Under the pieces are notes generated by a model. That model did not search any database. It was not told the origin of the DNA and was given only the letters and a program-made list of their open reading frames with translations. The position numbers and the translations under genes were made by a program. This document shows positions 1,261 to 20,904 of a stretch of DNA of 21,913 nucleotides, piece by piece. The stretch comes from a virus: positions 1 to 21,913 of the IMG/VR virus record IMGVR_UViG_3300032893_000294; one strand, 5' to 3'. Each line of letters begins with the position of its first letter. Within the stretch, counting starts at the first letter, position 1.

Positions 1261-1598
1261 GCTACGATTTCTATGTGGGGCAGAAGGTGGTGTGCGTCGA
1301 TGATAACTTACACATGGATTGGGAGTCAAACAGAGGGTGTGAACCGTGGCCGCTTATGGTGACTAATGGCAGTGCGTACGTCATCTCGGAAATACTTCTT
1401 TTGACAAAAAATAACGGAATAACCATACAGGGCCTTAGACTGCGTGGAGTAGTGAGAGATTGTAATTGTCCGCTTGACGCACGCCGCTTCCGCCCCCTCG
1501 AAACCAAATCCGACCCGCTCGAAATCTTTCGCCAGATGTGCCGCGATGCTGAATCCGGCCAGAAGCGCAAGCTGGAGCGGACCAAGGTGCAGCCATGA
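1257..1598 (+). CDS. Small soluble phage protein with VGQKVVCVDD start
   Basis: ATG 1257 is preceded by GGGAGA eight bases upstream. The 113-aa product begins with F-Y-V-G-Q-K-V-V-C-V-D-D, then a segment with Y-V-I-S-E-I and I-Q-G-L-R-L-R-G, and a charged C-terminus. This layout, a beta-rich small domain with a VGQ-V-C-V-D start, is one I know from many uncharacterised phage and alphaproteobacterial proteins and looks like an SH3-like barrel, though that fold is inference. It has Cys at 14, 28 and two in the R-D-C-N-C motif. The function is unknown. Its stop overlaps the Fic gene start at 1595. Confidence 0.75.
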   Translation: MSYDFYVGQKVVCVDDNLHMDWESNRGCEPWPLMVTNGSAYVISEILLLTKNNGITIQGLRLRGVVRDCNCPLDARRFRPLETKSDPLEIFRQMCRDAESGQKRKLERTKVQP

Positions 1599-2053
1599 CT
1601 AGCGTCACGCTTGGCCTACGCGGGTTCATCGCGGAGTCGAATCATATTGAAGGAATCGACCGGGAACCGTTTGACCGAGAGATCGAAGCAGCAGAACGCT
1701 TTCTGCGGATAGTTGAACCGACGGCCATTGACCTAGGCGACATGCAGGCCGTTTTTGCACCGGGCAAACCGTTACGTGAGCGCGTCGGCATGGACGTTTG
1801 TGTCGGCGAGTACATGGCCCCTGAAGGCGGGCCGCAAATAGTGGCAGCCCTCAACAAGATCATGCGCTCAGCACGCGGCGGCGTTCACCCGTGGAAGGTC
1901 CACGTCCGGTTTGAAAAGCTGCATCCCTACCTAGACGGTAACGGTCGAACAGGACGGATGCTATGGCTGTGGGGCATGGAGCGCCAAGGGCGTCGGGGGT
2001 TCGCGCTGCCATTCCTTCATTGGTTTTACTATCAAACGCTCGAACATTTGTGA
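1595..2053 (+). CDS. Fic domain protein (probable AMP/NMP transferase)
   Basis: Fic proteins transfer AMP or another nucleotide from NTP onto Ser, Thr or Tyr of a target protein. Residues 110-121 give a complete Fic active-site motif, H-P-Y-L-D-G-N-G-R-T-G-R, with catalytic His110, Asp114, Asn116, Arg118 and Arg121 all present. Upstream, residues about 66-90 look like the beta-hairpin flap that holds the target. Residues 15-20 read S-N-H-I-E-G, matching the [S/T]xxxE[G/N] inhibitory-helix motif, here N-terminal as in class II Fic proteins. At 152 aa it is a minimal Fic core with no extra domain. ATGA overlap with the upstream gene fixes the start. The target is unknown; host modification during infection or a toxin-like role are both possible. 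Confidence 0.9.
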   Translation: MTSVTLGLRGFIAESNHIEGIDREPFDREIEAAERFLRIVEPTAIDLGDMQAVFAPGKPLRERVGMDVCVGEYMAPEGGPQIVAALNKIMRSARGGVHPWKVHVRFEKLHPYLDGNGRTGRMLWLWGMERQGRRGFALPFLHWFYYQTLEHL

Positions 2054-2589: not shown

Positions 2590-2729
2590 GCGATATCGCC
2601 GACTACGGCTGGAAGATGTTCATGTATGGCGTCATTGCCGCCAATCAGGTTTGGCTCATGGTGATAGTTCTTTATGTCGTGCCAAAGATGAATGAGCTGA
2701 GGCAGAAAGCAAAAGGCCCCGACGTTTGA
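2586..2729 (+). CDS. Small single-pass membrane protein (47 aa)
   Basis: ATG 2586 overlaps the stop of the secreted-protein gene. The product has a polar start, a membrane segment at about 14-34 and a positively charged tail (K-M-N-E-L-R-Q-K-A-K), so the C-terminus probably faces the cytoplasm. It is the last gene of the plus-strand cassette, and its stop lies inside the hairpin at 2712-2743. No family is recognised. Confidence 0.6.
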   Translation: MSDIADYGWKMFMYGVIAANQVWLMVIVLYVVPKMNELRQKAKGPDV

Positions 2730-2743
2730 CCGCCGGAGCCTTT
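2712..2743. terminator. Hairpin between convergent operons, probable bidirectional terminator
   Basis: AAAGGCCCCG (2712-2721) pairs with CGGAGCCTTT (2734-2743) with one mismatch and a 12-nt loop. It lies where the plus-strand cassette meets the minus-strand unit. Read on the minus strand the stem is followed by TTTTGCTTT, a fair U-tract; on the plus strand it is followed only by TTT, so it should work better for the minus strand. Confidence 0.6.
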
Positions 2744-2782: not shown

Positions 2783-3109
2783 TCAGATGGCCGCTTCGAT
2801 GGACGTGATGATACCGCTGATAAAGTTGAGCCCATCGGTCAGCGCCTTCATGGCGCCGTTCCACGCGTCGGACTTGGCCTGCTCCGCATAAGGCCCCCAG
2901 GCTTGAGTGAACGCGTCGGATGGCGAGACGCCCTGCTGGATGAGTTCCGAGAACTTGGTTACGCCGACATTGAAGTCGTTCAGCTCTTCGCCCACCAGAC
3001 CAATGGCATCGGCCGACAGGGCCGAAACAGTGGACGCCGCATTACCGAGAACGCCTGCCTTGGCGGCATTGAGAAGCCCGGCCCAGATAGGCTGTGCAAA
3101 CAGGGACAT
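2783..3109 (-). CDS. Unknown 108-aa protein in its own transcription unit
   Basis: ATG at 3109-3107 follows AAAGGAGA (3116-3122), an excellent RBS. The 108-aa product is mostly helical, rich in Ala, Gly and Ser, net acidic, with few basic residues and no cysteine. It has hydrophobic or amphipathic stretches near 8-24 and 94-108 but no clear signal peptide. I do not recognise a family. It is separated from the lysis operon by 263 bp of structured non-coding DNA with a promoter and terminator, and has a terminator just after it. That isolation fits a moron-like gene expressed independently of the tail and lysis genes. A late small structural protein is an alternative. Confidence 0.8.
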   Translation of the reverse strand: MSLFAQPIWAGLLNAAKAGVLGNAASTVSALSADAIGLVGEELNDFNVGVTKFSELIQQGVSPSDAFTQAWGPYAEQAKSDAWNGAMKALTDGLNFISGIITSIEAAI

Positions 3110-3130
3110 GATGATTCTCCTTTGGGTTAT

Positions 3131-3210
3131 GACGCGAGCGCCGCGTCCGGCGGTCCACCCATTGCCCTAGGGGTCAGCACCCAAAGGATGGGGCAGGCAA
3201 CGGATGGACC
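3131..3210 (-). promoter_or_regulatory. Structured leader upstream of the 108-aa gene
   Basis: On the minus strand GGTCCATCCGTTGCC (3210-3196) can pair with GGCAATGGGTGGACC (3166-3152) over 15 bp with two G-U pairs. In RNA from the plus strand these would be A-C mismatches, so the pairing favours minus-strand RNA. Inside it is a small CCCA/TGGG hairpin. Next comes GACGCG-GCGCT-CGCGTC (3147-3131), a perfect 6-bp hairpin ending eight bases before the RBS. There is no open frame with coding character. It may protect or gate the RBS at 3116-3122. Confidence 0.6.
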
Positions 3211-3226
3211 CCCGGATGGGGCGCGT

Positions 3227-3251
3227 AAAACAAGGGCCGAAGACGCCCTTG
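3227..3251 (-). terminator. Rho-independent terminator
   Basis: On the minus strand CAAGGGC pairs perfectly with GCCCTTG around the 7-nt loop GTCTTCG, followed at once by TTTT (3230-3227). A 7-bp GC-rich stem with a UUCG-containing loop and a U-run is a classic intrinsic terminator. It ends the candidate small RNA and would also stop read-through from the lysis operon. Confidence 0.8.
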
Positions 3252-3332
3252 CGACTCCGGCCCTTGCTGTGGGTTGGATACTACCAGGTCATGACGCTGG
3301 TAGGCGGCTTCCCTGTGCACCGGTAAAGCCAT
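3227..3332 (-). ncRNA. Candidate phage small RNA or attenuated leader (about 106 nt)
   Basis: The predicted start is near 3332, seven bases after the -10 box; the end is the T-run of the terminator at 3227-3230. In order the RNA could form GGCTT/AAGCC (3330-3326 with 3310-3306), a perfect 7-bp hairpin CTACCAG/CTGGTAG (3303-3297 with 3287-3281) whose 9-nt loop holds the palindrome GTCATGAC, a single-stranded stretch, and the terminator hairpin. An upstream AAGGGCCG (3265-3258) can pair with CGGCCCTT (3239-3232) in competition with the terminator stem, which would allow on/off switching. This is read directly from sequence; expression and function are inferred. A C4/IsrK-type antisense RNA is one family to test, not a claim. 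Confidence 0.55.
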
Positions 3333-3338
3333 GGAGCC

Positions 3339-3367
3339 AGTATAAATCGGGGCGCAGGGAGAGGCAA
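3339..3367 (-). promoter_or_regulatory. Sigma70-like promoter
   Basis: Minus-strand TTGCCT (3367-3362) and TATACT (3344-3339) are separated by exactly 17 bases. The -10 matches consensus at five of six positions and the -35 at four of six. The -10 lies in an AT-rich island within GC-rich DNA, just after the stop of the last lysis-operon gene. It points at the candidate small RNA and, past the terminator, at the 108-aa gene. Confidence 0.6.
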
Positions 3368-3372
3368 GTAGG

Positions 3373-3714
3373 CTAGCACGGGTCGCTGGACGGCTGCTTG
3401 GGCGAAATCTTTTGTTCCAGTTGGCGGATACGGCGCTTGAGCTTGTTCACGTCATCGTCCGCCGCGTCAGACGGGTGAGCCTGGGCATCCGCCTTTGCCC
3501 GCTTGAGCTTGTCGCAATAGAAGTCCTCGGCGAACAGGGCCTGGGTGAGCGACTCGTCGCCCTGCTCCTTCTGGATTTGCTGGCCTTCCGCATAAGGCAC
3601 CCACGGCGGCAGGTGCCCGCCTACAACCGTGGTGAAGATCGTCACCACAGTCACCACGACGCCCAGCGCGGCGCCGGCCTCAGCAATCCGCTTTAGACTG
3701 TCCATTATGTTCAT
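3373..3714 (-). CDS. Membrane-anchored coiled-coil protein (113 aa)
   Basis: The product has one membrane segment at about 13-33, then a W-V-P-Y stretch, an acidic middle and a charged coiled-coil helix near 88-105 ending P-S-S-D-P-C. No lipobox or signal cleavage site is clear, so a type II-like membrane protein with its C-terminus in the periplasm is the simplest reading. It overlaps the preceding gene by 35 bp, more than other junctions in the operon. It closes the lysis-side operon and is followed by the promoter at 3339-3367. No family is recognised; holin-related or spanin-like roles are possible but unsupported. Confidence 0.65.
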   Translation of the reverse strand: MNIMDSLKRIAEAGAALGVVVTVVTIFTTVVGGHLPPWVPYAEGQQIQKEQGDESLTQALFAEDFYCDKLKRAKADAQAHPSDAADDDVNKLKRRIRQLEQKISPKQPSSDPC

Positions 3715-3850
3715 GGCAGTTGCACCTTTCCAGTTCGGTTTCCAGCCGTGTCACCCGTTGCTGGAGCGCATTGACGGCCAGCGCGCACCAGCCAACGATG
3801 CCAGCGCCAATGATCAAGGCGACAGTGTAGGCAGACTGTACCGCATCCAC
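3680..3850 (-). CDS. Small TM plus coiled-coil protein (56 aa)
   Basis: I chose GTG at 3850, four bases after the upstream stop and six bases after a GGCGAG RBS-like stretch; a longer frame would overlap the upstream gene. The product has a membrane segment at about 8-26, then a heptad-like helix (L-Q-Q-R-V-T-R-L-E-T-E-L-E) and a Cys/His-rich tail, C-N-C-H-E-H. This layout resembles small i-spanin-like or holin-accessory proteins, but a good spanin pair already exists upstream. The function is unknown. Confidence 0.55.
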   Translation of the reverse strand: MDAVQSAYTVALIIGAGIVGWCALAVNALQQRVTRLETELERCNCHEHNGQSKADC

Positions 3851-3854
3851 ACGA

Positions 3855-4019
3855 TCAGCTCGCCTGATTGACGATGGGTTGAATCTTCGCGGCCAGCGCC
3901 GTCTCACCTTGTGCCGTCAGTGCATCGCAGATGCACTGTCCCTCTTCTTTGGTCAGGCTGACCTTTTCGTCAGGATGACCAGCAACGGAAACGATAATTC
4001 CACCGCCCGAGCTACTCAT
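3855..4019 (-). CDS. Small soluble protein (54 aa)
   Basis: ATG at 4019-4017 follows CAGGAGAAATAG, where GGAG is the RBS and TAG the stop of the preceding gene. The 54-residue product starts with M-S-S-S-G-G-G, then a short beta-like stretch, then two likely helices with a C-I-C motif and the pattern T-A-Q-G-E-T-A-L-A-A-K-I. It has no membrane segment. It is a short unknown protein placed among small membrane proteins. The longer frame starting at 4142 is rejected because it lacks an RBS and overlaps its neighbour. Confidence 0.6.
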   Translation of the reverse strand: MSSSGGGIIVSVAGHPDEKVSLTKEEGQCICDALTAQGETALAAKIQPIVNQAS

Positions 4020-4021
4020 GG

Positions 4022-4294
4022 CTATTTCTCCTGATGATGCAGAAGGTCTTGGGGCACCTTCACGCCCTGATTGGAAAGCTGCTCCAGAAATGCCTCGTTG
4101 CGCTGGAGCCAGTACGACATCACAGACGCCTGCTTCTGGCATTCAAAGGCATAGAACGCGGACATGATCGAAAGCACGATGGCGAACGCCGTGAAGAACG
4201 GACGGTCCATGCCGACAAGGCTAACGCGAACATTGGAGCCGGAGCCTTCGACCCGCTGCCCCATGTCGTCAATCGCTGTGTGGCCTTCGCTCAT
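4022..4294 (-). CDS. Single-pass membrane protein (90 aa)
   Basis: The start ATG lies two bases after the stop of the upstream gene. Residues 1-30 are soluble, about 33-50 form one membrane segment (F-F-T-A-F-A-I-V-L-S-I-M-S-A-F-Y), and the rest is a helix with aromatic and Gln residues ending H-H-Q-E-K. It lies in the lysis region after the spanins. An antiholin, second holin or accessory membrane protein is possible; the sequence does not decide. Confidence 0.65.
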   Translation of the reverse strand: MSEGHTAIDDMGQRVEGSGSNVRVSLVGMDRPFFTAFAIVLSIMSAFYAFECQKQASVMSYWLQRNEAFLEQLSNQGVKVPQDLLHHQEK

Positions 4295-4296
4295 CG

Positions 4297-4566
4297 TCAG
4301 AATCCAAGAAAATGCTTCACGAAATCATGCACTAAAGGGTTATACGCAATCAGCACGACCACGAGGATAAGCCCCGCGATTTCGATTCTCCGCAATCTGT
4401 TTTCCGACCCGTTCTGGCTCTTGCGTAGTTCGCGATAGCGAAGCGCACACCGCGTCACATGTCGGTCAAGATCGGTCGTCTCCGACTTGTCCGGCATTCC
4501 CAATTCATCATCTTGCGGATCATAATCACCACGTCCAAGATTGAAGATGCTCGCCAAGGCGTTCAT
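4297..4566 (-). CDS. C-terminal tail-anchored membrane protein (89 aa)
   Basis: The start follows the spanin stop by three bases with TTAGGGA just upstream. The first 60 residues are polar and charged, and about 63-78 (A-G-L-I-L-V-V-V-L-I-A-Y) form a membrane segment near the C-terminus, followed by an aromatic tail. This tail-anchored arrangement is seen in some small phage lysis-region proteins. The function is unknown; it is probably co-expressed with the spanins. Confidence 0.65.
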   Translation of the reverse strand: MNALASIFNLGRGDYDPQDDELGMPDKSETTDLDRHVTRCALRYRELRKSQNGSENRLRRIEIAGLILVVVLIAYNPLVHDFVKHFLGF

Positions 4567-5354: not shown

Positions 5355-5980
5355 TAAGCCTCCTTGCCACCCAGCAAGGCCAGCGCCCGCTGCTTGGCTT
5401 TGATGCGTTGCTGCAAAGCGTTGGTGCCACCGTTAATGAGCCGGGTCACCTTTTCGGTATCGTCCAGGTCGGCGGCTTCCGCGCACTTGCGCTCGATGAA
5501 ATAGGCGATAGCCACTGGCACGCCATAAACGGGATCGGCCACCATGTCGGGGTCGTCCACAAACGGTTGCCCCAGCTTGGCGCCGAAGTGTGCGTAATTG
5601 TCCTTGAAAGTCAGTTGCAGCGGCCCGCGCCCCCTGTATGTCCACCCGTCGCCGGATGCTTCGTTGCCGTTGCCGTAGCGCCCGGCATAGGCCGCGCTCG
5701 CCAGCGCCTTGGGGTTGCGTCCCAGTTCGTCGGCCCGGCCAGCTAACAGGGGGAATCGCGCCGCGACCGCTTCAGCCGAATAGTTCAGGTTCTCCTCGCG
5801 CCGGGTAAAGCTCCAGCTTTCCACGCAGGTCTGGGCCAGGAAGTGCGCAGCCCTGAGCGGTGTGGCGAGCCCGGCCGGACCAAGTTGCGCGTCGAACAAA
5901 GGCGCATAGGCTTCCATCAAGGCCGTAGTGTCGTTGGCCAGCGCTATGCGGCGGAGCAGGTCAGTGGTGACGGCGATCAT
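5354..5980 (-). CDS. Endolysin, glycoside hydrolase family 19
   Basis: GH19 endolysins cut the glycan strands of peptidoglycan. The 208-aa protein carries the family's landmarks: H-F-L-A-Q-T-C-V-E-S around 46-55 with catalytic acid Glu54, E-N-L-N-Y at 63-67 with the second Glu63, Y-R-G-R-G-P-L-Q-L-T at 115-124 and N-G-G-T-N at 183-187. There is no signal peptide, so it should depend on the holin next door. The start overlaps the RTX gene by 4 bp. Length is normal for a single-domain phage GH19 enzyme. Confidence 0.92.
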   Translation of the reverse strand: MIAVTTDLLRRIALANDTTALMEAYAPLFDAQLGPAGLATPLRAAHFLAQTCVESWSFTRREENLNYSAEAVAARFPLLAGRADELGRNPKALASAAYAGRYGNGNEASGDGWTYRGRGPLQLTFKDNYAHFGAKLGQPFVDDPDMVADPVYGVPVAIAYFIERKCAEAADLDDTEKVTRLINGGTNALQQRIKAKQRALALLGGKEA

Positions 5981-6615
5981 TTGCGCCTCCTATGGTTGAG
6001 CGCGCCCCAGGCGCCCATGTCGGCCGGCGGGTAGCTGTTGAACAGGAAATCGGATGCCGACAATGTGAGGTTGCCCAGCAGATTGACCGAGAAATCCGGT
6101 TGGCCGTCGCCGTCGAGGGCGGCTTGGATCACGGTCACCGCCGTACCATTGGCGCGGTAAGGCGGCCGAAATGCGGGCTGGAAGGTTATACGGTAATTGA
6201 CTTCGCCCGGCACCCCGTCGAATGCGGCGGTACCGATGAAGGTGCAAGACACGTTCGCCTTGCGGCACACCCCCGCCATGGCAATGACGTCCGTACCCGG
6301 CACAAAGTCGGTGATGGTGTCGGTCGTAGCCCCAAAACTCTCCTTGGCCTTGTTGAAGCCGAAAGCGTTAATGCCGCCACCCCCGGTGAGCGTATCTGCG
6401 CCATTCTTGCAGTCGCCGCCAGAGGTATCGGCCCCGCAGGCATCGCCCCACAACACGTCATCACCATCGCCGCCGATGAGAACGTCATCGCCGCCCAGAC
6501 CCACGAGCGTGGCATTGCAGCTATCCGCTGCCACGATGGTGTCGTTGCCGTCCGTACCGAACTGCGGAAAGCATCCGGTAGTCGCTATGGCCAGCGCTGC
6601 TAAAACCGTTTGCAT
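5977..6615 (-). CDS. Secreted small RTX (calcium-binding repeat) protein
   Basis: ATG 6615 follows AGGGGG. Residues 1-14 are hydrophobic and lead to T-G-C at 13-15, giving a weak lipobox, so it is secreted and possibly lipidated. Residues about 19-80 hold RTX nonapeptide-like units (G-T-D-G-N-D-T-I, G-G-D-D-V-L-I-G-G-D-G-D-D-V-L, G-A-D-T-L-T-G-G-G-G). These are followed by F-G-F-N-K ... D-T-I-T-D-F-V-P-G-T-D-V-I at about 84-111, the capping motif that follows RTX repeats in serralysin-type proteins. Known RTX beta-rolls fold when they bind calcium. The rest (112-212) has a cysteine pair and a beta-rich tail without a known domain. No catalytic domain is present. It sits between the tail fibre and the endolysin, coupled to the latter by 4 bp. 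Confidence 0.85.
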   Translation of the reverse strand: MQTVLAALAIATTGCFPQFGTDGNDTIVAADSCNATLVGLGGDDVLIGGDGDDVLWGDACGADTSGGDCKNGADTLTGGGGINAFGFNKAKESFGATTDTITDFVPGTDVIAMAGVCRKANVSCTFIGTAAFDGVPGEVNYRITFQPAFRPPYRANGTAVTVIQAALDGDGQPDFSVNLLGNLTLSASDFLFNSYPPADMGAWGALNHRRRK

Positions 6616-10619: not shown

Positions 10620-11258
10620 TCAAGGGCTGATCACGACCGAGGCCACTACGCCCACAGGTTTCGGCAGCACGTGCGATTGCTCGATGATTGCCAGCTGCAC
10701 AGGCGTTGGATCGAACTTGAACGTGTAGGTCATCGTCATGTCGCGCCCGTCGGTCACGTAGCATTTCCCCGAACTTCCGAACAAAGTCATGAGAATGTTG
10801 TTGATAGCGAGGATGGAGCCGTCGCAGATGTTGGCGAACGCCTTGGCCAGAATGAGCTGCCGGTAGGCGTAGTCCGACAGCAGGTAATTCTCGGTAAACG
10901 GCGTGCCGGTCCAGAACGGCGCCTGATTGAACGGCTCTACATCCGTGCCGCCGTTTTCGTTGAACCCGAAATAGGCGCCGGTGGTCACCTGCAAAGCGCG
11001 ATTGACGCCCACGATGCGGCCCCAGACATCCAGCCCATAGCCCACGGCGGTGTCTACGTTCCAGATGAGATTGTAGAAGCTCTCCCAGTTCACTTCCTGA
11101 TCGACGCACTGCGAAAAGTTGTCGATCATCTCCAGCAGCGTGGGGCTGTTGGCGTACTGCGAGATGACGGTATCTTCAACATCGAAGTACGGAACGAAGG
11201 CGCCCGCGCCGATGGGGCTGATGCCGATCTGGAACTGGCCGATTGCCGAACTGGTCAT
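10620..11258 (-). CDS. DUF2612-type baseplate protein
   Basis: The 212-aa protein has [12 protein letters not shown] at about 74-85, the signature of DUF2612 phage proteins, followed by a domain with [14 protein letters not shown]. In gene order these follow the J-like wedge protein and precede the fibres, like P2 gpI or Mu gp48, and probably link the baseplate edge to the fibres. The start overlaps the J-like gene by 4 bp. Structural role by family and position; no enzyme motif. Confidence 0.85.
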
Positions 11259-12676
11259 GTCAAGGTGATCTTGATGTCGTTGGCCTGGGTGACCGGCACC
11301 TGATCGATGCCCACCTGGATGGTTTCCTGATCGAGCGCCGCAGCTGTGATCGTCGTGCTACCGGCCGTCTGCGACAGATCGACTGTGTAGGTGCCGATGC
11401 CGCCCGAGCCTGTGCCGAGCGCGGTAATCTGCGTGCCTTCCTGAATGGTCGAGCCGGAAATGACCTGCCCCACCGCGAGCGTGCCAGAGGTAACGGCGGA
11501 AACAGTGAGCGTCGTACCCGAAATGGAACCGGTGACTACCGCGCTGGCCACATTGTTGGAGCCCAGGAACAGGGAAATGATCTGCACCCACGGGCCTAGC
11601 ACGGCCACCGCCGAGATATAGCGGCTGGCGTAGATGATGGAACCGATGCGGGCGCGCGGCCCATTGTCGGTGCCGGCGAACGCATTGATGATGGCCGTCT
11701 GGATAAGGCTTACCGCGTTGGACGGTACCTGCGGGTTGTTGGCGATATTGATGGCGAACGCCACCACGAGATCGTCCGGCCGCTCGAATTTCACCGTATA
11801 GGCCACCGGGTTGGCATACAGGGGGTTGTTGTCGTAAGCGGTGACCGTGGTGTTGCCGGAGTAAGGCGCACCGGGGCTCTTCTTCGACAAAATGGCCTGC
11901 GCCACGTCCGAATCGGTGCCTCCAACCACGGCCACGTAGATGGCGTAAGCCGCGATGGTGTAGTCGCCGATGGTGGTACTGGTGGACGACGCATTGTCGT
12001 AGGCGTAGTAGTCGAGCACACCCGCCACCTTGGACACCGCGCCGATGATGGAACCCGCTGCGCCAAAGCTGTTGCCGGCCACGGACTCCGCTCGCCGCGC
12101 CTCGAAGTTGGCGCGGTTCTCGACGTCGACACCGGTCACGCCATCGGTGGGATTGTTGATGCTGTCCCAGCCGGGAATAGCCTGGTAAATGATGTTGAGC
12201 GTGTTGGCGGGGCAGACTACAGGCCCCGGCACCGAACAGGCAAAGGGCAGCGTGACCGTGCCGCCGATACCGATCTTGCCGCCGGTGGTGCAGATGTAAG
12301 TATTGCCTGCCTGATCCTGCGCCAGAGCGCCGGCCTTGATCTTGACCCCGGCAAGGCCGGAACATGTGCATTGCACCACGGTCGACAGGGCCGGGTTGCG
12401 CTCGATGAAATAGATGCGGGCAATGGCATCCTGCATGCGCCCCGACGCATAAGCCGGGTCTACCTGATTGGTGAGAAAGCAGAACGTGTCGTCGGCGTTG
12501 GCGATGATGGCCGCCATGGACGAGGCCAGCTGGCCCTGCGGCGTTTCCAGCGCGGGGTTGAGGTTGCCGCCGAAGGCGTCGTTGATGTCTTCCTGCACGC
12601 CGGCCAGGATGTCCTGCTCGTCGGGCGGTATGAACCCGTTGGCGCCGAATGTTGGGGGAGGGACATTTGTTGGCAT
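11255..12676 (-). CDS. Baseplate wedge protein, J/gp47-like
   Basis: The 473-aa protein matches the layout of P2 gpJ / Mu gp47 / T4 gp6 family wedge proteins. It has an N-terminal helical part, [11 protein letters not shown], an A-G-x-x-I-x-A-G core with Y-I-C-T-T-G-G, then [16 protein letters not shown] and repeated V-A-V-V-G-G. It forms the ring of wedges that opens when the tail contracts. Residues about 379-445 are an extra Gly/Thr-rich domain near the C-terminus (listed separately). It begins four bases after the gp25-like gene. Confidence 0.88.
11342..11542 (-). other. Inserted Gly/Thr-rich domain in J-like protein
   Basis: Residues about 379-445 read [15 protein letters not shown], then [10 protein letters not shown], then [12 protein letters not shown] and a closing S-Q-T-A. 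The same pattern occurs in the sheath and tail terminator proteins, so it is an accessory, probably surface-exposed domain rather than part of the J fold. Confidence 0.75.
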
Positions 12677-15550: not shown

Positions 15551-17355
15551 CAGACCGGCCCGCCATTGGCCTGGTTGGCGAGGCTATTGCGCTCCAGTGC
15601 TGCACGCAGGTCGCGCGCTATACCGGTGGCATCCTTGGCCTGGGTCACCACGGTGATGTGGCCGATGTGCGTTGACTTGGTCGACGACTTGGTTACGCCG
15701 CCAGACTTGCTCAAGACGTTCGCATATACGAGCCGCTGTGCCAGTGCCGCCATGACGTTGGCGGGTCTTTCATAAAGCGAAGTGATGATCGACGTTGCCT
15801 GGCTAGCGTCGGTAGCCGCGCTCAGTGCGCGCCCGGCCTTCTGCTCGGAACCCTGGCGCAGTTCGTAATTGATAAAGGCCAACTGTTCGTCGTGCGTGGA
15901 ACTGCGAATGTCGTGGCCCGCCCACCGCGCAAACGCGGCCTGCCTGTCGGGATGCCATTGCGCCAGCCCATAAGCTGAGCCGCTGTCACCCACGGCGCGT
16001 GCGTTGCCGCCGCTCTCCGCCTGAATGTTGGCCGCGATACCGATGGCCTGTTCGCGCGTCCAGCCCATTTTCTGAAGCTTGGCGACATCGTCGCCCGAAA
16101 CCGCGCCGCCACCGCGCCCGCCAAACGCGGATGCCCTTGCTGGCGACTTGCCGCCAAAGGCATCGATCTGGCGTCCGGCATTGGTGACGTCATCGCTCAT
16201 GTCGCCCCAAAGATGGTGCCACCAGTGCTTTACAGCGTCCCAGTGCTTGTAGAGTTCATAACCGGCGAAACTGATAGCCGCGATTCCGGCGATGATCCAC
16301 CCCACCGGTGTGGCAAGAATTGCCGCGCCGAGCGCCGCGAACGCATCCGCCAAGGCTGGCAATGCCACTGTGGTGAGCGTACCAAGTACACCAGTGAGGG
16401 CAATGGCGCCACCGCCAAGAACTTCAAAACCAAGAGACATTGCCGCAACTGCGACACCAACAAAACTAATGACCATTGCCGCCGACAACGCCAGAACCGC
16501 CGCCGTCAACACAGCGAAGAAGGCAATGAGCAACGGTTTGTGAGCTTCCAGAAACGCTATAAACGCCGTTAATGTTCTTAGTATCGCGCTTATTGCCGGC
16601 TCCAAAAGGGTGAAGATTGTATGACCGGAACGAGTGGATTCTTGTTCCAATTCTTTCAGATTTTTATTAAATTCCTTACCAGCCGCAATGTCGGCCGGTG
16701 TCATAGCTAGACCTTTTTGTGCATCCAGCGCTTCCTGGATTGCCTTGCGGCCCTGCATAATGAAGGCAATCGTGCCGGGGTCCATACCCATCGCCGTAAG
16801 CAGTGCAGTAGCACGCGCCGGGTCCATGCCTTTGACATGGTCGGAGATTTCGAGGAACAGCTCGGACGCGGTCTTGAGGTGCCCGTTACCATCGATGAGG
16901 CCGATGCCCAGCGCGCGCAAATACGGGATGACGGCGGATTCGCCGGTAAGCGAGAACTGCTGCAGGTTCTGCGACAAATTGAACAGCGAGGAGGTAACCC
17001 CGTCCGCCGAACCGCCGGCCTGTACCACGGCTCCTCGCCATTCGGCCAAGGTCTGGACTGAAATGTCCATCATGGTGGACATGCGGCCGAGCTGAATGTC
17101 GGTGGTCACCAGATCGGAGATGAATTCCTTGATGCCTTTGCCGGCGGTAAACACCGCATAAAGCGCGATCAGTTCGCCGCGCAGGCGTGAGAAGAATTCC
17201 GTGCCGCGTTTGCCGGCACCTTCGATATCGTCGCCCGCCTTGCGCGCCGAATCGCCGGTCTTCTTGAAGTCGTCCTCGACCTGTTTGCGCCCCTTGGTGT
17301 AACCGGAGGCGTCGAGGCCCACTTCTACCAGCAAACTGTCAATGACGGTCGGCAT
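15550..17355 (-). CDS. Tape measure protein with tail lysozyme domain
   Basis: The tape measure sets tail length and is ejected ahead of the DNA. ATG 17355 (sharing a base with the chaperone stop) gives 601 aa; a TTG three bases earlier is possible. Order: N-terminal part with D-A-S-G-Y-T-K-G-R-K-Q-V-E typical of tape measures; helical 60-265; strongly hydrophobic 270-365, likely membrane-active; then a phage-tail-lysozyme domain (about 424-540). The lysozyme has M-G-W-T-R-E-Q-A-I-G-I-A-A-N-I-Q-A-E-S and Y-G-L-A-Q-W-H, Glu447 being the likely catalytic acid. At about 1.5 angstrom per residue this predicts a short tail of roughly 90 nm. A patch at 16430-16690 is visibly AT-richer than the rest. 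Confidence 0.9.
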   Translation of the reverse strand: MPTVIDSLLVEVGLDASGYTKGRKQVEDDFKKTGDSARKAGDDIEGAGKRGTEFFSRLRGELIALYAVFTAGKGIKEFISDLVTTDIQLGRMSTMMDISVQTLAEWRGAVVQAGGSADGVTSSLFNLSQNLQQFSLTGESAVIPYLRALGIGLIDGNGHLKTASELFLEISDHVKGMDPARATALLTAMGMDPGTIAFIMQGRKAIQEALDAQKGLAMTPADIAAGKEFNKNLKELEQESTRSGHTIFTLLEPAISAILRTLTAFIAFLEAHKPLLIAFFAVLTAAVLALSAAMVISFVGVAVAAMSLGFEVLGGGAIALTGVLGTLTTVALPALADAFAALGAAILATPVGWIIAGIAAISFAGYELYKHWDAVKHWWHHLWGDMSDDVTNAGRQIDAFGGKSPARASAFGGRGGGAVSGDDVAKLQKMGWTREQAIGIAANIQAESGGNARAVGDSGSAYGLAQWHPDRQAAFARWAGHDIRSSTHDEQLAFINYELRQGSEQKAGRALSAATDASQATSIITSLYERPANVMAALAQRLVYANVLSKSGGVTKSSTKSTHIGHITVVTQAKDATGIARDLRAALERNSLANQANGGPV

Positions 17356-18414: not shown

Positions 18415-20172
18415 CTACTGGACGTCGATAGAGGTGAGATCGATCTGTTGGACCGCTTCGCCGTCCATGTACCAGAACGTGCATGGCGGCGATTGCCGGG
18501 CTTGTCGAACCTGCGGCGAAGCATCCTTGACCTGCAAGTACCAGCCTTGGCTGGATAGCACGTTGCTGATGGTCGTTCCCGCCGCGTTGTTCACTTCAGC
18601 GGCCTGCGCCGCCGACAAGGTCACGCCCGCGCGGAAAGCACCGAAGTTGAGCCCGGCGTTGATGACGTCGGCGCATGCGGCTTCGATGAGCGCGTAACCG
18701 GTCGAGTTGTATGGGATGGACTTCACGGTGAACAACAATTCCATCAACGCCAGCTGGAACTCGTTGTTGAGCCAAATCTGGTTGATGTAGCTGTCCATCC
18801 ATTCGAATGGCCCGCTCACGCTGCCCGGCGACAACCCCTGGAACTGCTGGTTAGCCGTTGCCCACGCGCCATAGAAATTATAACCGTTGGCGATGAGGTT
18901 GGACGCTACCGACTGGTTGGTGATGTCCGGCACCAGCCCGGTCTGGCTGCGGAACTTGTAGGTAATACGCCCGTTGGTCTCGGTGAAATCGATGGACGCG
19001 CCGATGCCAATAGCGAACGCCGCCTTGGTGTAGTCGGGGCAGTTGATGAGAAAGGTGCCCGAGTAATCGCCCTGCTGAAGCAAATAGCCCAGCGAGGTCG
19101 TCGCCGGCACCGTGGTCTGGGGCGAAGCGTCCGTATCCCAACAGACGTAGGCGTAGCGGTCGTCGGTGGTGCTCACCCACTGGGCAAACGCGAGCTTTAC
19201 CGCGTTGCCGGTATCGCCGTCCGCGTCGGGGTCGAACAGCGTCATGAAGGTAGCCCAGTCCTGGGTCTCTTCAATGAGGTTGTTCATGAAGGTAGCGGGA
19301 ACTTGTGCGGCCACACCCTGCGACAGCACGGCGCCGGTTGCCTGCGTGAGCAACAAGGGCGCCGCCAGCGTGCCGGTGGCATAAGCGATGGTCGAGCCGT
19401 TGCCCTTGTCGGGTGAGGTAATGACGAACGCGCCCGACACCGAATCGTAGGTAACGGTGGGACCCGACGCCACGCCGCCGGTCATGGACTCGCTGGCCAC
19501 CGTCTGAATGGGACTCACGAAATAAGTGCCGGTACCGCCCGTGCCGGAATCCAACCCCACAATGAGCGTGCCATCCGTAACGCCGGTGCCGGCAATGATC
19601 ATGCCGACATAAAGCGTGCCCGAGCCCACGGCGGTGACCGTCATGATGGACCACGGTTGCGGCAAAGGCGGGAACGGCGTGGCGATGGATGCGGTAAACG
19701 ACGCGCTGGCGGGAGCTTCCGCCTGCAAAGCGGTCTGGAGGATGGACGCCGCATCCGAGAACGAGGTGGCGCCGGACAGATCGATGCCGGAAGCGTTGTA
19801 GGGCACGGTGCTGACGGTGATGTCGAGCGCGCCACTCAACCCCTGCAACGTGGTAAGCGACATGCCGGAAATATCGCCACCGCGCAGATAGGAATGAACC
19901 CGGTGCTGGTTGTACTGGGCAAACAGCATGGCGCCGGGCTTGACGTTGGAGTTATCGAAGCCCTGGAAGTAGATGGCCGCCGCTGCGGCTTCCGTCGATC
20001 CACCGCCGAAGTAGTCCGATACGTCGAGCGCGTTGGCAAAACTGTGCACGTCGCCGATTGGCACCTGCGTATTGGTGGTGAGCGCCAGCCCCACCATGTC
20101 GAGCGCGGAGCCGCCGGCCGCCAGCACGTTGGGCGTGACGTTGACGATATCTGATGCGGGAATGGAATTCAT
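18415..20172 (-). CDS. Tail sheath protein, DUF3383 type
   Basis: The contractile sheath surrounds the tube and shortens on infection. ATG 20172 follows AGGAG. The 585-aa protein has the DUF3383 features I recognise: V-S-D-Y-F-G-G-G-S-T-E-A-A-A-A-A-I-Y-F-Q-G-F near 51-71, P-G-A-M-L-F-A-Q-Y at 79-87 and V-T-Y-D-S-V-S-G-A-F-V-I-T-S at 240-253. Others are the A-T-G-A-V-L-S-Q-G block and a C-terminal F-W-Y-M-D-G-E-A-V-Q-Q-I-D-L. Residues about 156-233 are an inserted Gly/Thr-rich domain splitting the usual sequence between I-L-Q-T-A-L-Q-A and the V-T-Y-D motif. Because that region of sheaths is outward-facing, the insert likely decorates the tail surface. Confidence 0.9.
   Translation of the reverse strand: MNSIPASDIVNVTPNVLAAGGSALDMVGLALTTNTQVPIGDVHSFANALDVSDYFGGGSTEAAAAAIYFQGFDNSNVKPGAMLFAQYNQHRVHSYLRGGDISGMSLTTLQGLSGALDITVSTVPYNASGIDLSGATSFSDAASILQTALQAEAPASASFTASIATPFPPLPQPWSIMTVTAVGSGTLYVGMIIAGTGVTDGTLIVGLDSGTGGTGTYFVSPIQTVASESMTGGVASGPTVTYDSVSGAFVITSPDKGNGSTIAYATGTLAAPLLLTQATGAVLSQGVAAQVPATFMNNLIEETQDWATFMTLFDPDADGDTGNAVKLAFAQWVSTTDDRYAYVCWDTDASPQTTVPATTSLGYLLQQGDYSGTFLINCPDYTKAAFAIGIGASIDFTETNGRITYKFRSQTGLVPDITNQSVASNLIANGYNFYGAWATANQQFQGLSPGSVSGPFEWMDSYINQIWLNNEFQLALMELLFTVKSIPYNSTGYALIEAACADVINAGLNFGAFRAGVTLSAAQAAEVNNAAGTTISNVLSSQGWYLQVKDASPQVRQARQSPPCTFWYMDGEAVQQIDLTSIDVQ
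19474..19656 (-). other. Inserted Gly/Thr-rich domain in sheath
   Basis: Residues about 173-233 read M-T-V-T-A-V-G-S-G-T-L-Y-V-G-M-I-I-A-G-T-G-V, then D-G-T-L-I-V-G, then G-T-G-G-T-G-T-Y-F-V and I-Q-T-V-A-S-E-S-M-T. The match to the domains in the J-like and terminator proteins is clear at the protein level. Confidence 0.8.
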
Positions 20173-20178
20173 CGCGTG

Positions 20179-20904
20179 CTACTCCTGTGGGTAGGTTTCT
20201 TCCACGTTGATCGTCGTAATGACCGCTTGGTCGGCGAACTGCTGCGGCAGGCTCAAGGTTGGATTGACCTGCAGCGAAGCCTCAATGACCCAACGGTCCT
20301 CGTATTGCTTTTCGGCATTGATGAACGGAATCTGGCGCGGGTCTTCCGAATACAGGGGGGCGGCTGAATACCCGTTGCGCTCGAAGAAAAACACCGCGTA
20401 ATCGTCGCGCAAGGCGGTGGATATTGCCTGCGCATTGTCGCCGCTGTTGGGGCCGTGCACGTCCAGCTGCACCACAACCTTGGTGGGCTGGCTGAGCAAG
20501 GCCAGCCCCGCCGCCATGGCCTGGCTGGCAACCGCCTGCGACGGCGCCACCACATAGACGCCAACACCGCCCGGTGTGCCGCTCGTTTGCGAGACGATAG
20601 CCGAACCCGCCGCCAGATTGGCGCCAAAGAGCGCCGCCCCCGCCACCAGCTTGCCCAGCACCACGGCAGACACCGTCATGGCCGTGCCGGCAATGACCGC
20701 CGTGAACGAGGCGTCGTCGTAGTCGTCCACGTTGGTTTCCAACCGCTCGCGGCGGATGGCGTTCATGGTAACGAAGTCCGGCCCCTTGGGCTCCGGCACG
20801 CGGTTTACCTGCGCCTGGATCACTTCCACCCCGGACGGCAGGAAGCTCAACAGGTAAGCGCGCAGCGCCTTGAAGGCGTCGTCTTGGACGGGGGCGAGGA
20901 TCAC
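20179..20904 (-). CDS. Tail terminator protein, LIC_12616/gp12-like
   Basis: GTG 20904 overlaps the tailspike stop by 4 bp. The 241-aa protein begins with A-L-R-A-Y-L-L-S-F-L-P-S-G-V-E-V-I-Q-A-Q-V-N-R-V-P and P-K-G-P-D-F-V-T-M, the pattern of the LIC_12616/neck-terminator family, and ends with V-V-V-Q-L-D-V-H-G-P and F-F-F-E-R-N-G-Y. Terminators cap the tube and sheath at the head end; location just before the sheath agrees. Residues about 67-133 are the inserted domain, which splits the family sequence right after E-T-N-V-D-D-Y. Confidence 0.85.
   Translation of the reverse strand: MILAPVQDDAFKALRAYLLSFLPSGVEVIQAQVNRVPEPKGPDFVTMNAIRRERLETNVDDYDDASFTAVIAGTAMTVSAVVLGKLVAGAALFGANLAAGSAIVSQTSGTPGGVGVYVVAPSQAVASQAMAAGLALLSQPTKVVVQLDVHGPNSGDNAQAISTALRDDYAVFFFERNGYSAAPLYSEDPRQIPFINAEKQYEDRWVIEASLQVNPTLSLPQQFADQAVITTINVEETYPQE
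20506..20706 (-). other. Inserted Gly/Thr-rich domain in tail terminator
   Basis: Residues about 67-133 read A-M-T-V-S-A-V-V-L-G-K-L-V-A-G-A-A-L, then A-A-G-S-A-I-V-S-Q-T-S-G-T-P-G-G-V-G-V-Y-V-V and S-Q-A-V-A-S-Q-A-M. It is the most diverged of the three copies in this window. Confidence 0.75.

Follow-up and report, generated by a model that had tools for sequence, protein, structure and literature searches.

The window, the whole stretch of DNA that was analysed, comes from an uncultured tail-bearing phage; its IMG/VR record is a linear virus fragment exactly 21,913 bases long. Its minus strand carries leftward genes from 21848 to 3373 that form a contractile-tail module, encoding a DUF3383-like sheath, a tape measure, a baseplate spike, a wedge, a J-like protein and tail fibres. 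A GH19 lysozyme and an Rz-like spanin provide lysis functions within the same array. Rightward genes occupy the left of the window and end at 2589. Alone between the two sets lies a gene for a 108-aa protein (3109-2783, minus strand). The 263-nt gap ahead of it is the largest in the leftward array, where late genes otherwise overlap or are closely spaced, the exception being one 166-nt gap that precedes an ORF with an unrefined start.

The nearest phage relatives are uncultured IMG/VR contigs that share at most 68% identity in single tail proteins. Named relatives, at about 40% in the sheath, are a Helicobacter pametensis prophage, Pantoea phage PA-1 and Pseudomonas phage Amjad_SA. Three of the structural genes appear to have an inserted domain in common, with a motif that includes G.I..G., located at about residues 375-445 of the J-like baseplate protein (11255-12676, minus strand), 150-235 of the sheath (18415-20172, minus strand) and 65-140 of a 241-aa protein (20179-20904, minus strand). 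Pieces of these three proteins match other structural genes of the relatives, and the shared region is possibly a mobile beta domain that has spread across structural proteins.

Other genes of the window have features of their own. A rightward gene (1595-2053, plus strand) encodes a Fic/DOC-family protein (Pfam E 2e-7) that is possibly a Doc-like toxin or an AMPylase. The translation of a late-operon gene at 5977-6615 (minus strand), with the lysozyme on one side and a tail fibre on the other, contains RTX-like repeats GGDDVLIGGDGDDVLWG. Small ORFs at 3680-4142 and 4297-4566 (minus strand), between the spanin and a 113-aa gene, have codon scores of -0.15, -0.09 and -0.01, unlike the late genes, and the starts or gene calls in these two regions are uncertain. 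No homologues were found for the neighbouring 113-aa protein.

The 108-aa gene itself is coding-like. Its codon score of 0.348 falls among those of the late genes (0.18-0.42), compared with -0.23 +/- 0.29 for antisense frames. Its ribosome binding site (RBS), described as strong in an earlier note on this DNA, has an ideal Shine-Dalgarno (SD) sequence, AAAGGAG at 3123-3117, 7 nt ahead of the ATG at 3109. The protein is predicted to be all-helical, and the AF2 model has four helices at low confidence (pLDDT 66.7). A fold search with this model against PDB and BFVD returned nothing at E <= 0.001. Homologues were likewise absent from phage records, IMG/VR, GTDB genomes, plasmids and the relatives' records, and the gene is missing from all phage relatives found (L002-L012, L021-L036 and their records). 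The protein resembles no antirepressor. We guess that it is accessory or host-directed.

Two intrinsic terminators flank the gene. T1 (3227-3267, minus strand; CAAGGGCCGGAG...CTTCGGCCCTTG-TTTT) lies in the leader, about 100 nt past the stop codon of the last late gene. It has a stem of about 15 bp (3267-3230) followed by UUUU, with a dG of -30.6 and a z of -6.7. An inner competing arm, CAAGGGC at 3251-3245, allows a shorter stem (3251-3231), and the U run consists of four U only. T2 (2712-2740, minus strand), which lies 3' of the gene, was not part of the earlier description and has the highest terminator score of the window (d = 24.3, compared with about 14-15, or 14.9, for T1). In both, a GC-rich stem runs directly into a U run and the score is over the threshold. 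The d'Aubenton-Carafa scan covered both strands of the 21.9 kb, and T1 and T2 are the only sites with d>0; at d>=14, two were found where 0.12 are expected per shuffled window. One sits just before and the other just after the 108-aa gene, all on the minus strand, which supports the view that the gene stands alone and has signals of its own.

The leader is structured, belongs to the minus strand and is non-random. All of the elements that the earlier note had listed in order for the gap can be read on that strand, and its judgement that they are not chance-like agrees both with where the window's two sole terminators lie and with the folding of the leader. RNA 3340-3110 (minus strand) folds at -119.3 kcal/mol (z -6.1, as against -3.7 for the plus strand). 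In a GC-corrected scan of 120-nt segments on both strands (n=1,454), 3270-3151 (minus strand) ranks first in stability relative to GC content (-5.1 sd), ahead of the best segment that does not overlap it (-3.0 sd). This signal stems from two hairpins, T1 and a second one termed I1 (z -6.8), whose stabilities were reached in 0/300 shuffles. I1 is also the longest inverted repeat of the leader region, equalled in 0/300 shuffles. The first 65 nt of the leader, by comparison, are near chance (z -1.5). They include a readable 7-bp hairpin, CTACCAG-CGTCATGAC-CTGGTAG (3303-3281, minus strand), whose loop contains the palindrome GTCATGAC (palindromic loop GUCAUGAC).

G-U pairs had been said to make a 15-bp stem valid in minus-strand RNA only. 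In sense this is right: T1 (2 on the minus strand versus 0 on the plus strand) and T2 (4 versus 0) show it clearly, and it assigns the terminators to the minus strand. The argument is weak for I1, which has 3 G-U pairs on either strand in the minimum free energy fold and 2 versus 1 in the ungapped register.

The leader has no recognizable kin. The search for homologues in other phages and in Rfam that the earlier note had proposed gave no homologue and no Rfam family, with only chance matches in Rfam at the gathering threshold and at E 10. Leader DNA gave chance-level matches against phages, plasmids and relatives. The pattern of the terminator stem matched 51 times, in no case with further similarity to the leader or the gene, and was taken as generic. 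A second copy, as expected of a repeat or REP element, was sought in the window and none was found.

Hairpin I1 (3138-3224, minus strand) starts 2 nt past the U run of T1. Its 29-nt arms (3224-3196 and 3166-3138) include a 15-bp run with G-U pairs and pair at -61.7 kcal/mol. The loop region holds a further element that the earlier note had not described, an anti-Shine-Dalgarno UCCUUUGGGU (3179-3188, minus strand). It can form an alternative helix, I2, by 10 consecutive Watson-Crick pairs between 3188-3179 and 3127-3118, where the 3' arm ACCCAAAGGA spans most of the SD. Only 3/1000 shuffles of the upstream leader yield a run against the SD region that does as well, and a longer 16-nt match stands at 88%. 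A scan of IMG/VR with the I2 pattern gave 0 matches.

From the geometry, complete I1 and I2 helices are expected to exclude each other, as four nucleotides cannot span I1. The leader thus has two mutually exclusive folds, one of them over the SD, as is characteristic of an RBS switch. The fold with I1 has an advantage of about 21 kcal/mol, and the hairpin is complete before the SD gets transcribed. Opening the SD is computed to cost 2.0-3.5 kcal/mol with the 5' arm of I1 present and 5.4-6.8 kcal/mol without it, so that the RBS would be open by default and damage to this arm would close it. In equilibrium folds the protection that I1 gives is modest, since the SD is still partly paired even without I2 (0.41 unpaired). 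We therefore regard the I1/I2 pair as a computed possibility and not as a demonstrated switch.

Ahead of these structures lies a sigma-70-like promoter candidate (3367-3339, minus strand), with TTGCCT at 3367-3362, a 17-nt spacer and TATACT at 3344-3339. This site, proposed as a promoter in the earlier note, is indeed present and matches at 9/12 positions, but it is weak and its kind is no more frequent in the window than in shuffles (6 versus 8.0 +/- 3.1). It may be real by its position, although it carries no statistical weight. A 52-codon ORF (3332-3174) starts near the supposed transcription start and overlaps the leader; it was considered as a leader peptide and rejected because its codon score of -0.27 is noise-like.

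Our preferred explanation, which we hold with about even confidence, is that the 108-aa gene is a single-gene, moron-like unit insulated by terminators, expressed by read-through of T1 and with I1 keeping its RBS open. The unit would be situated past the leftward late operon, with its tail and lysis genes, and before the convergent rightward genes. T1 would halt most transcription from the late operon, along with any from the weak promoter candidate. Polymerases that pass T1 would make an mRNA in which I1 folds upon transcription and holds the anti-SD off the SD, leaving the strong RBS open for synthesis of the helical protein, and T2 would terminate the transcript past the gene. The two terminators, I1, the I2 pairing that excludes it, the RBS and the coding character of the ORF are computed results, whereas control by read-through, moron status and the guarding of the RBS by I1 are inferred. 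The explanation is favoured by the two terminators that alone in 21.9 kb score d>0 and that flank the gene on its own strand, together with the large gap, the late-gene codon usage and the ideal SD. The role of I1 as a guard is suggested by its advantage over I2 and its completion before the SD, and cargo status by the absence of the gene from all relatives found. Against this explanation, a moron usually has its own promoter, and the candidate here is not above chance; it is unusual for a moron to have a terminator separating promoter from gene; T1 has a short U run, and the guard effect of I1 is modest.

The simplest alternative, an end-of-late-operon terminator before a separately insulated gene, was missing from the options of the earlier note, which had offered a small RNA or an attenuated leader. 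In its plain form, T1 only ends the late operon, the promoter is fortuitous, I1 is a hairpin for mRNA stability or RNase III, and the gene is expressed by low, unregulated read-through. The position of T1 shortly beyond the last late gene, the chance-level count of promoter-like sites and the commonness of hairpins at operon ends all suit it. We nevertheless judge it somewhat unlikely, as it leaves unexplained why an anti-SD match should fall exactly over the SD and why the gene should have its own strong T2 and strong RBS.

The two options of the earlier note both need the promoter, and the promoter statistics weaken both. A phage small RNA of about 106 nt (3332-3227, minus strand), made from this promoter, ended by T1 and acting in trans, would fit the correct order of promoter-like site, hairpins and terminator as well as the fold of the segment (z -5.0). 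This z is mostly due to T1, however, with the near-chance 5' portion adding little, and there is neither an Rfam match nor a relative. The promoter is not above chance, and without one the reading would lack a start; we consider it unlikely. Quite unlikely too is a regulated attenuator or RBS switch, in which a phage or host factor (an antiterminator protein, an antisense RNA, RNase III or a ligand) would decide whether T1 is read through, or whether I1 (open) or I2 (closed) forms. The two competing 5' arms of T1, the mutual exclusion of I1 and I2 and the precise placement of I2 over the SD speak for such control. Yet either competing arm yields a terminator, no antiterminator fold was found, the overlapping ORF is not coding-like, and the energetic lead of I1 means that a factor would be needed to open it.

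A related switch, in which I1 forms only on transcripts that have passed T1 and traps the anti-SD, so that only intact full-length leaders are translated, seems improbable to us; if true, the gene would be silenced when I1 is cleaved or its 5' arm is lost. Kinship with C4/IsrK-type antisense RNAs, which would place such an RNA ahead of its own target gene, is highly improbable: the locus is arranged like IsrK (PMC4825925), with a gene behind a promoter, a short RNA and a terminator, but Rfam gives no match even at E 10, the duplex of 3332-3227 with the downstream RBS (-23.9 versus -23.0 +/- 3.3 in shuffles) is matched by 111/300 shuffles, and the downstream gene is unlike an antirepressor.

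What the locus means depends on these readings. A regulatory leader would offer a phage case in which terminator read-through goes together with a guarded RBS. The 108-aa protein would then be dose-controlled, which usually points to a host-directed or toxic product. If this is merely an insulated cargo gene, the case is routine; cargo genes that come with terminators and a structured leader are common.

Structured RNAs also occur in the relatives. Contig L009 carries a DUF3800-VIII RNA (RF03075) at 17051-17116 (plus strand; 56.3 bits, cut-off 40.2). This RNA lies between small genes close to where the lysis genes of that contig are found. It resembles the leader described here in being a small structured RNA near the lysis genes of a kindred tail array; RF03075 has no match in the window. 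A second contig, L027, has an sRNA-Xcc1 (RF02221) at 5739-5823 (plus strand; 82.2 bits).

The 6S RNA of lambda, made from pR' and ended at tR' with antitermination by Q, is a phage example of a 5' leader attenuator. In both, a promoter (here a candidate) is followed by a short leader, and polymerase must then read through an intrinsic terminator. Downstream, however, lies one gene and not a late operon, and no Q-like gene was identified in the fragment.

In IsrK of Gifsy-1, a short RNA ends at a terminator, and the longer isoform made by read-through serves as mRNA for the gene that follows (PMC4825925). The layout of a short terminated RNA followed by a gene is alike, whereas our leader matches neither IsrK nor the C4 antisense RNAs in sequence or structure, does not pair significantly with the downstream RBS, and has no upstream frame like orf45 and no antirepressor gene. 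The read-through mRNA of IsrK is translationally closed; the one here is predicted to be open by default.

The locus can also be compared with the moron or accessory loci of HK97/HK022-type prophages (PMC7067206). It differs from these in lying on the same strand as the late operon, in having a promoter that is only a candidate (one 9/12 site), and in the extra terminator and very stable hairpin between this candidate and the gene. In common with them, it consists of a single small gene at the edge of a lytic operon that is absent from relatives, here phages with no more than 68% identity in single tail proteins, and that has a strong RBS and its own terminator, T2.
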